From positions 186,001-250,000 of the forward strand of contig MPCU01000004.1 of NCBI GenBank assembly GCA_001874305.1: a DNA stretch of 64,000 nt, written 5' to 3'. How positions within the stretch are numbered: position 1 is the first letter of the stretch; every line of letters starts with the position of its first letter. This stretch comes from Bacteriovorax sp. MedPE-SWde (GTDB lineage: Bacteria; Bdellovibrionota; Bacteriovoracia; Bacteriovoracales; Bacteriovoracaceae). Of this stretch, positions 27,819 through 48,410 are shown in pieces. A model generated the notes under the pieces. The model did not search any database. It was given only the letters and a program-made list of their open reading frames with translations, and was not told the origin of the DNA. The translations under genes were made by a program, and so were the position numbers.

Positions 27819-28028
27819 TTATTGAATCTTTTTCTTTCTAGGCTTTCTTTTCTTTTTAGCTTTAGGATTTAAAGTCACGTTAACTAACTCCAGAACTGCT
27901 TTCGCCTCTTTTCTAAGTCCATTTTCGTGAATAAATCTGTAGAAGTTCTCAATATCTGGTGAGCTTCTAAAGTTTTTTATACCTTTTACTGCTTCACCTT
28001 CTGTTGCTACTGCTGTTTGTTTCGACAT
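27819..28028 (-). CDS. Small protein with Lys/Arg-rich tail
   Basis: 69 residues. A strong GGAGG seven bases before the ATG supports translation. The middle is a plausible helical region (SPDIENFYRFIHENGLRKEAK). The last 16 residues are almost all basic (KAKKKRKPRKKK), like nucleic-acid-binding tails. It lies 81 bp downstream of the sigma-54-activator-like gene and has its own terminator. No family is recognised. A small nucleoid- or RNA-binding protein is one reading. Confidence 0.7.
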   Translation of the reverse strand: MSKQTAVATEGEAVKGIKNFRSSPDIENFYRFIHENGLRKEAKAVLELVNVTLNPKAKKKRKPRKKKIQ

Positions 28029-28109: not shown

Positions 28110-29660
28110 CTATGCTTCCTTTGGCTCGATCATTCCGTAGCTATGAAGCTTGTTATATAGAGTCTTTACTGTAATTCCTAATGTCTTAGCTGTTTTAGTT
28201 TTATTTCCGCTAAGGTGCTCAAGAGTTCTACAAATATGCTCTCTTTCAAGGTCATTTAGAGTCATTTCTCTAAATCCTCTTTCTTCAACTGCTTCTGCTT
28301 CTTCTTCAAACATTTCAACTTTAATACTATCTGCTAGGTGGTCTCTTTCAATAATTGAACTTGGAGAAAGAATATATGCTCTTTCCATAATTGAATGAAG
28401 CTCTCTAACATTTCCTGGCCAGTGATAATCAGAAAGTAACTTGATTACACCTGGTGACATTGATTTTTGAGAGTCAGCTGACTTTCCTACATTTAAAAAG
28501 TGTGATGCAAGAACTTCAATATCTTCATGTCTTTCTCTAAGAGACGGCACTCTTAAAGACATTGTTGATACTGAGAAGTATAAGTCTTCTCTAAATGTTC
28601 CTTCTTCAACACATGTCGCTATATCTTTTGATGAAGCTACGATTACTCTTAAGCTTGATCTTAGTGGAACTTGTGTTCCAGCTCTAAAGAAGATCCCTTC
28701 TTTAATAAAATTCATTACTTTTGCCTGTAGTCTTACTGGCATTTTATCAATATTGTTAAGGAATACTGTTCCGCCATCTGCTGCTTCACATACACCTTTA
28801 TGTATTCTTAAACCTTTAATTACATCTAGCTCTTCTCTTCCAAAGATTTCTGATTCAAGTTGCTCTTCTGATCCCATTGAACAATCTACAGAGATAAATG
28901 CTCTTTGATTTCTCTTACTTCTACAGTGAATTCTTCTGGCGATCATTTCTTTTCCAACACCTGACTCACCGTTAATTAGTACGTTTACATCAGTTGCTGC
29001 AACTCTATCTACTGTTGAAAGAATCTCTTTCATTACTCCAGAGTTTCCAACAATCTCTTTTTCTTCAATTCTGTATGTATCAACAAGATCAAGTCCGCCT
29101 TTCTTCTTATTAAGTTCTGTCTCCTTCTCTTCAATCTTCTTTTGAAGTGATTCATTTAAGAACTTAGCAGAAAGATACATCTTCATATTTGCTAATGGAC
29201 CTTGAATTTCATTTAAAATTTCTACTACTGTATTGATATCTGATCTTTCAAACTTTCTTGAGTCATCTTTTACTCTAAAGTGTACTGTTCCGATGATGAT
29301 TCCATCTACTGATACTGGAACACATAGTTCTGATACAACATCTGTTTCACCAGCTGATGCAAAGATTGGGTCTCTTGAAACATTATTTGAAAAGTATGGT
29401 CTCTTTGTCTTTACTACGTAACCTGCAGCTCCAAGACCTTTTGTCTTTCTAACTGACTTTTTAACGGCCCTACCGTTCTTAGCTACTCTTCTGCAGCTAT
29501 TATCTTCATGTACAAGGTTAAGAACAATTTCATCACAAGCGATAACTTTTCCAAAGAATTTAGTAAGTTCACCGAAGAAAACTGCTTCATCTAAAGTTGA
29601 AAGAAGTTTAGACGATAGAGTGTCGATTTTTGTTAACTCTTTAGCCACTGTGTTTGTCAT
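28110..29660 (-). CDS. GAF-AAA+-Fis regulator lacking GAFTGA and Walker B acids
   Basis: 516 residues with the layout of a sigma-54 enhancer-binding protein: GAF domain (about 20-165), coiled linker, AAA+ domain (about 205-430) and Fis-type helix-turn-helix (about 470-508, NKTKTAKTLGITVKTLYNKL). Walker A is intact (GESGVGK, 231-237). The sigma-54-contacting GAFTGA loop is missing: after ESEIFG the chain reads REELDVIKGLRIHKG. Walker B, normally FLDE, is FLNN (N302, N303), so ATP hydrolysis should fail. The arginine-finger region FREDLYF keeps its first Arg. It probably binds DNA and perhaps ATP but not sigma-54, and could act as an anti-activator or as a regulator of sigma-70 promoters. GGGAG precedes the ATG. 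Confidence 0.88.
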   Translation of the reverse strand: MTNTVAKELTKIDTLSSKLLSTLDEAVFFGELTKFFGKVIACDEIVLNLVHEDNSCRRVAKNGRAVKKSVRKTKGLGAAGYVVKTKRPYFSNNVSRDPIFASAGETDVVSELCVPVSVDGIIIGTVHFRVKDDSRKFERSDINTVVEILNEIQGPLANMKMYLSAKFLNESLQKKIEEKETELNKKKGGLDLVDTYRIEEKEIVGNSGVMKEILSTVDRVAATDVNVLINGESGVGKEMIARRIHCRSKRNQRAFISVDCSMGSEEQLESEIFGREELDVIKGLRIHKGVCEAADGGTVFLNNIDKMPVRLQAKVMNFIKEGIFFRAGTQVPLRSSLRVIVASSKDIATCVEEGTFREDLYFSVSTMSLRVPSLRERHEDIEVLASHFLNVGKSADSQKSMSPGVIKLLSDYHWPGNVRELHSIMERAYILSPSSIIERDHLADSIKVEMFEEEAEAVEERGFREMTLNDLEREHICRTLEHLSGNKTKTAKTLGITVKTLYNKLHSYGMIEPKEA

Positions 29661-29701
29661 TGCCTGTCTCCCGTTGTATTTTTAGTTTTTGTTTTTTTAA
29701 T

Positions 29702-29754
29702 AACGCTAAGCGTTGATCTAAAACCATAATACAGTGCGTCTGAAATTTTTACAA
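29702..29754 (-). promoter_or_regulatory. Sigma-70-type promoter with start-site palindrome
   Basis: On the minus strand TTGTAA (29749-29754) and TATTAT (29726-29731) are separated by 17 bases. The 13-bp palindrome AACGC-TAA-GCGTT (29702-29714) falls about +6 to +18 from the expected start. It could be an operator, possibly for the gene's own Fis-type product, or a leader hairpin. There is no -24/-12 (GG...GC) sigma-54 promoter. Confidence 0.55.
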
Positions 29755-29759
29755 GACTA

Positions 29760-29775
29760 AAACACTCGGGTGTTT
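29760..29775 (-). terminator. Weak hairpin after tolB
   Basis: AAACAC and GTGTTT form a 6-bp stem with a 4-base loop, 18 bp past the tolB stop. Only a short U-rich run follows on the minus strand. It abuts the -35 box of the next gene's promoter. Confidence 0.35.
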
Positions 29776-48367: not shown

Positions 48368-48410
48368 TGATATAATAAATATATAAATCTTTAATGTTGC
48401 AAAGCGTTGC
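48368..48410 (+). promoter_or_regulatory. Extended -10 promoter and near-palindrome before acyl-CoA dehydrogenase
   Basis: TGATATAAT (48368-48376) matches an extended -10 element (TGnTATAAT). No good -35 box precedes it. About 20 bp past the likely start, GCAAAGCGTTGC (48399-48410) is an imperfect palindrome (GCAA..GC..TTGC) that could be an operator for a fatty-acid regulator. Confidence 0.35.

Follow-up and report, generated by a model that had tools for sequence, protein, structure and literature searches.

The gene at 28,110–29,660 (minus strand) of the window, by which we mean the whole 64,000-nucleotide stretch of DNA analysed, encodes a degenerate enhancer-binding protein of 516 residues. 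Our best explanation, to which we give a probability of about two in three, is that this protein is a former σ54 activator that now works as a σ54-independent DNA-binding regulator, binding ATP without hydrolysing it, repressing its own gene and probably activating two others, gene X and LDT-1. The reading frame is open throughout, from an ATG at 29,660 to a stop at 28,110, and encodes a protein of the NtrC/NifA class with the order GAF, AAA+, lid and Fis-type HTH. Pfam matches were obtained to Sigma54_activat (6.9e-45), the AAA lid, HTH_8 and GAF_2 (8e-8). The AAA+ core (Pfam Sigma54_activat) and the Fis-type HTH expected of a bacterial enhancer-binding protein are therefore both present. The GAF domain (residues about 24–150; 29,211–29,591, minus strand) is seen in the Pfam match and in an AlphaFold2 model. 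The AAA+ fold of that model is confident (mean pLDDT 84), with a target-normalised TM of about 0.9 to the active NtrC1 and FleQ domains, and the model indicates that the NtrC-type AAA fold is retained. At the sequence level the closest solved relatives are NifA, NtrC1 and ZraR. The top NCBIfam match is also NifA (TIGR01817), which shares the GAF-AAA-HTH order; NifA, however, retains GAFTGA and Asp-Glu, and the score of 268.5 bits is far below the cut-off of 528.85.

Walker A is intact (GESGVGK, residues 231–237; 28,950–28,970, this and the following motifs all being on the minus strand), as is the Fis-type HTH (residues 464–510; 28,131–28,271), whose GNKTKTAK-LGITVKTLYNKLHSYG stretch is near invariant among orthologues. 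A sequence-only reading of this DNA had reported both of these correctly, and had described the σ54-contacting loop as gone. GAFTGA is indeed absent, but in this protein the L1 loop is replaced at equal length, with LDVIKG (residues 278–283; 28,812–28,829) at the GAFTGA position and FGREELDVIKG where intact relatives have FGHEKGSFTGA. Across the family this position is variable or deleted, the deletion being confined to a sister clade. Alignment confirms the same reading's Asn-Asn in place of the Walker B Asp-Glu (FLNN, residues 300–303; 28,752–28,763). Further defects are found at the switch Asn, which is Asp (SVDC), at the sensor I Asn, which is Ser, and in the Arg-finger segment (28,572–28,592), where the first Arg (residue 357) is retained and the second is Ser (residue 363; FREDLYFSV). 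Hence, for the ATP-hydrolysis residues of an enhancer-binding protein (Walker B Asp-Glu, switch Asn and two Arg fingers), this protein has NN, Asp and R...S. The sensor II Arg (residue 419; 28,404–28,406) is still present.

The loss is common to syntenic orthologues in about 90 Bacteriovoracaceae-type genomes, the named records belonging to Bacteriovoracaceae and Halobacteriovoraceae (Bdellovibrionota), and GAFTGA is missing in all 82 degenerate orthologues. Identity to the window's protein across its family is mostly 36–68%. Since nearly all family orthologues, many of them under 50% identical, share the loss, it can be ascribed neither to chance nor to a local sequencing error. The gene occupies a single conserved locus, with tolQRA-tolB upstream on the same strand and genes for a 69-residue basic protein, an HD hydrolase and ftsE/ftsX-like products downstream (names read from the sequences). 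In other families of the phylum every relative retains G(A/S)FTGA, Asp-Glu, both Arg fingers and the sensor II Arg, and two of them have the same downstream small gene and an ftsE-like gene. Within the family the full motif set is retained only in L026 and L284, both of which branch basally and which, alongside the intact outgroup families, mark the descent from an enhancer-binding protein with loss of GAFTGA. The sequence-only reading had proposed a search for orthologues with the same losses, which nearly all family members turn out to have, and had taken any that keep GAFTGA and Asp-Glu as a pointer to sequencing error. Such orthologues do exist, but because they are limited to the two basal lineages and to other families they represent the ancestral state, with no sign of error.

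In a tree of 93 taxa, made with the loop and Walker B columns left out, GAFTGA changes once, the Asp-Glu pair once, and the Walker B Asp and the sensor II Arg four times each. This sequence-based reconstruction shows a single loss of GAFTGA close to the family's base, after which the ATPase residues decayed by different routes. In the larger clade, which includes the window, Walker B and the second Arg finger have mostly been lost, the switch Asn is mostly Asp and the sensor II Arg is retained. In the sister clade the loop is deleted, the sensor II Arg and the Walker B Glu are lost and the second Arg finger is retained. Walker A Gly-Lys is present in 80 of the 82 degenerate orthologues, compared with 27 for the Walker B Asp and 3 for the Glu. 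At matched HTH identity the AAA core is 35% identical in degenerate pairs as against 68% in intact pairs, and nearly all species retain, at this one locus, the P-loop, the GAF domain and, most of all, the HTH. We read this pattern as release from the remodelling job, with selection staying on DNA reading and on the GAF domain, and it appears that nucleotide binding is also still under selection in the degenerate orthologues. The earlier prediction that the protein should bind DNA, and maybe ATP, but not remodel σ54 holoenzyme is thus well supported by the HTH, the P-loop and the combined loss of GAFTGA and catalytic residues. RpoN is present in the window's genome, and a search of 58 genomes found it in 55, so the loss of GAFTGA is not a consequence of the loss of σ54. 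The window's genome also has several GAFTGA-intact activators with unrelated HTHs; comparison of the genome's activators found no paralogue with an HTH similar to that of the window's protein.

Judged by its elements, the promoter of the regulator gene is of the σ70 type. A −35 hexamer TTGTAA (29,749–29,754) and a −10 hexamer TATTAT (29,726–29,731), with a 17-nt spacer, are followed by the dyad CAACGCTTAGCGTTA (29,701–29,715; all minus strand), a candidate autoregulatory operator centred at about +10. This layout is strikingly conserved in the family as TCTTGTAA, 17 nt, TATTAT and then the inverted repeat TNACGCNNNGCGTNA, which in most species is centred 42–46 nt from the −35 (about +10). The dyad scores at least 12 in 41 of 59 promoters kept out of motif training, against 0.5% of shuffles; certain lineages (the L254–L268 group, L282 and L286) have it in a weak form or at a shifted position. 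A −24/−12-like element was found in none of 80 regions upstream of the regulator gene. Directly upstream of the −35, and at a fixed distance from it, is a further conserved block, AAACACCCGAGTGTTTTAG in the window (29,757–29,775, minus strand) and ACACCCGAG(C/T)ATTTTAG over the window and the orthologous promoters, which may be the site of a second regulator.

Across the roughly 740 kb of sequence fetched, the motif picks out hardly anything besides the regulator's own promoters and those of its intact relatives. In two other families (G040 and G054) it stands before relatives that share the HTH and keep GAFTGA, and there the surrounding genes are different. That occurrence is the strongest ground we have for linking the dyad to the HTH, and it implies that the operator is older than the loss of GAFTGA. 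The evidence that TNACGCNNNGCGTNA is the site of the window's protein is circumstantial, and we treat it as the predicted site. Strong sites are few per genome. Over the whole genome the strict dyad, with one mismatch allowed, is found no more often than its reversed control, and we reject a wide regulon accordingly. A looser pattern gave 46 matches in the window's own genome against 22 in the control, and 134 against 200 and 37 against 113 in two outgroups; because the outgroup matches fall below their controls, we claim no general enrichment. With a short 19-column model (R2) the power fell, and almost no matches were obtained. Within the window there is an isolated dyad match (score 12.5) at 48,395–48,409, upstream of a likely start codon.

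A profile made from the regulator's promoters only was run over eight genomes. Besides the own promoter it matched, in two genera, the promoter of a gene for a secreted protein (gene X, orthologous between the two), and the dyad is found there in 7 of the 11 genomes with X, the window's own included. LDT-1, a YkuD-like L,D-transpeptidase (Pfam YkuD 0.002, below the cut-off), was set down as a hypothesis before the orthology test; a dyad scoring at least 12 was found at LDT-1 in 4 of 9 genomes, one of them the genome that had suggested it, with one more at 10.8. Off-target matches put the chance rate of the dyad at the order of 0.001–0.002 per promoter. In G012 LDT-1 and X lie next to each other in divergent orientation with one dyad in common; the two are divergent neighbours in G018 as well, where, as in G015, neither has the dyad. 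Another candidate, LDT-2 (G000:C14:642), was rejected, because its dyad, present in the window's own genome, is missing from all seven homologous loci examined elsewhere. Further dyad sites in the window's own genome are not put forward as targets. At X and LDT-1 the dyad stops 8–10 nt upstream of a −10 hexamer at 6 of the 13 sites, where 0.46 would be expected, a post hoc figure, as the offset was noticed before counting. A dyad so placed overlaps or replaces the −35 box. The conserved dyad, a candidate binding site by sequence, stands at σ70-type promoters (own, X and LDT-1). A GAF-controlled regulator of normal promoters had been among the earlier suggestions, and it is the part about normal promoters that this candidate operator upholds.

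We propose a model in which ATP is bound but not productively hydrolysed, so that nucleotide or the GAF signal would serve as a ligand switch that sets the oligomeric or DNA-bound state, with no mechanical work on σ54. The regulator would bind TNACGCNNNGCGTNA, and from a dyad centred at about +10 of its own σ70 promoter it would block transcription, giving autorepression. At X and LDT-1 it would act from about −29, with the dyad at the place of the −35, as a class II-like activator of σ70 polymerase. Activation is the more likely role here because a −35 box is missing from some of these promoters; less probably, the dyad-bound regulator would repress them.

This last option can be extended to a protein that is purely a repressor, acting through the same operator, with ligand-controlled derepression of its own gene, X and LDT-1. 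Every dyad lies within the core promoter or just downstream, and at gene X in G000 (the window's genome) and G004 it overlaps a usable −35 (TTGCGC or TTGTGC, 17-nt spacer), both of which suit repression. However, X in G003 and LDT-1 in G000 show, by eye, no −35-like hexamer 17 nt upstream of the −10, for which activator-dependent promoters are the better fit, and we regard pure repression as rather unlikely. Less likely again is that another regulator owns the dyad and the degenerate protein binds elsewhere. The link between protein and dyad is one of position and phylogeny only, but the occurrence of the dyad before intact same-HTH homologues among different neighbours in two other families argues against a separate owner.

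The sequence-only reading had also raised a decoy, or an anti-activator within mixed oligomers. Such a protein would poison the ATPase rings of intact σ54 activators or occupy their enhancers, and RpoN, intact GAFTGA activators and a retained AAA fold are all to be found in this genome. Against this, no other activator of the genome has a similar HTH, the dyads stand at σ70-type promoters, none of the 80 regions upstream of the regulator gene has a −24/−12-like element, and the AAA domain evolves fast, unlike a partner-binding surface; neither form of the idea gained positive support, and we consider it improbable. The accelerated AAA evolution and the very divergent members L064 and L065 might instead speak for a functionless, decaying pseudogene-like remnant, a view made scarcely credible by the open frame, the synteny, the near-invariant HTH, and a promoter and P-loop that are conserved over about 90 species.

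The preferred reading, a σ54-independent DNA-binding regulator, resembles the enhancer-binding protein derivatives of the VpsR, HupR and Rhodobacter capsulatus NtrC type, and by analogy the published GAFTGA-less relatives make each step of the mechanism plausible. VpsR of Vibrio cholerae, whose structure (7v2b) is among the Foldseek matches, likewise combines an NtrC-type AAA fold without GAFTGA with σ70 promoters, and is reported to be independent of ATP (PMC10274813). It is not an orthologue, having a receiver-like domain and c-di-GMP where our protein has GAF, and a different HTH and targets. R. capsulatus NtrC and HupR have also lost GAFTGA and use the housekeeping polymerase (PMC10274813, PMC3162934), but they are two-component receiver proteins, whereas the window's protein has a GAF domain and has lost the Walker B acids. 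For R. capsulatus NtrC, in which the loop is deleted and not substituted as in the window's clade, ATP binding is reported to be needed and hydrolysis not (PMC10274813). TyrR and DhaR of E. coli are former σ54 activators at σ70 promoters. TyrR is both a repressor and an activator. The sensor domains and targets of these two differ from those seen here, and TyrR alignments still mark a Walker B motif; both are listed with HupR and VpsR as activators that lost the element (PMC3162934). Caulobacter NtrC, again GAFTGA-less, represses and activates σ70 promoters (PMC10274813), but it requires intact Walker A and B, and Walker B is lost in the window's protein. Because HTH mutants of Caulobacter NtrC activate some σ54 genes (PMC12421884), the absence of GAFTGA does not, by this analogy, strictly exclude σ54 effects.

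Isolated GAFTGA-less activators were thus already known. As far as our search could tell, the novelty lies in a series that spans the family, in a P-loop that outlasts both Walker B acids, and in a candidate operator with a small predicted regulon. Together the intact outgroups, the two basal lineages that survive intact and some 80 degenerate orthologues from one locus trace the change from a remodelling ATPase to a plain transcription factor, in which the coupling loop is lost once, the catalytic residues decay by different routes, and the nucleotide-binding loop and DNA reader are kept. More tentatively, and with somewhat less than even confidence, we suggest a sigma-factor switch at a conserved operator, in which the HTH and dyad were kept while the regulator moved from σ54 to σ70 across nearly the whole predator family, with ATP binding as a non-hydrolytic ligand switch and a regulon of cell-wall and secreted proteins. 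Only the types of target hint at a possible role in predation. The dyad offers a ready test for binding and regulon. Annotation pipelines call such proteins σ54-dependent activators, a label that misleads across an entire family of bacterial predators.

The 69-residue basic protein of the locus (27,819–28,028 of the window, minus strand) has no Pfam match; its gene adjoins the regulator gene throughout the family and also adjoins GAFTGA-intact relatives in another family (f12). Two more degenerate activators are found in the window's genome. L040 (G000:C12:77112-77561), a PilZ-GAF-AAA-HTH protein of 661 residues, has CAFTSTKGG at the GAFTGA segment and HE at Walker B. L039 (G000:C15:181433-181888), a short AAA-HTH protein without GAFTGA, has VLVNI at Walker B and lies about 4 kb from the intact response-regulator activator L031.
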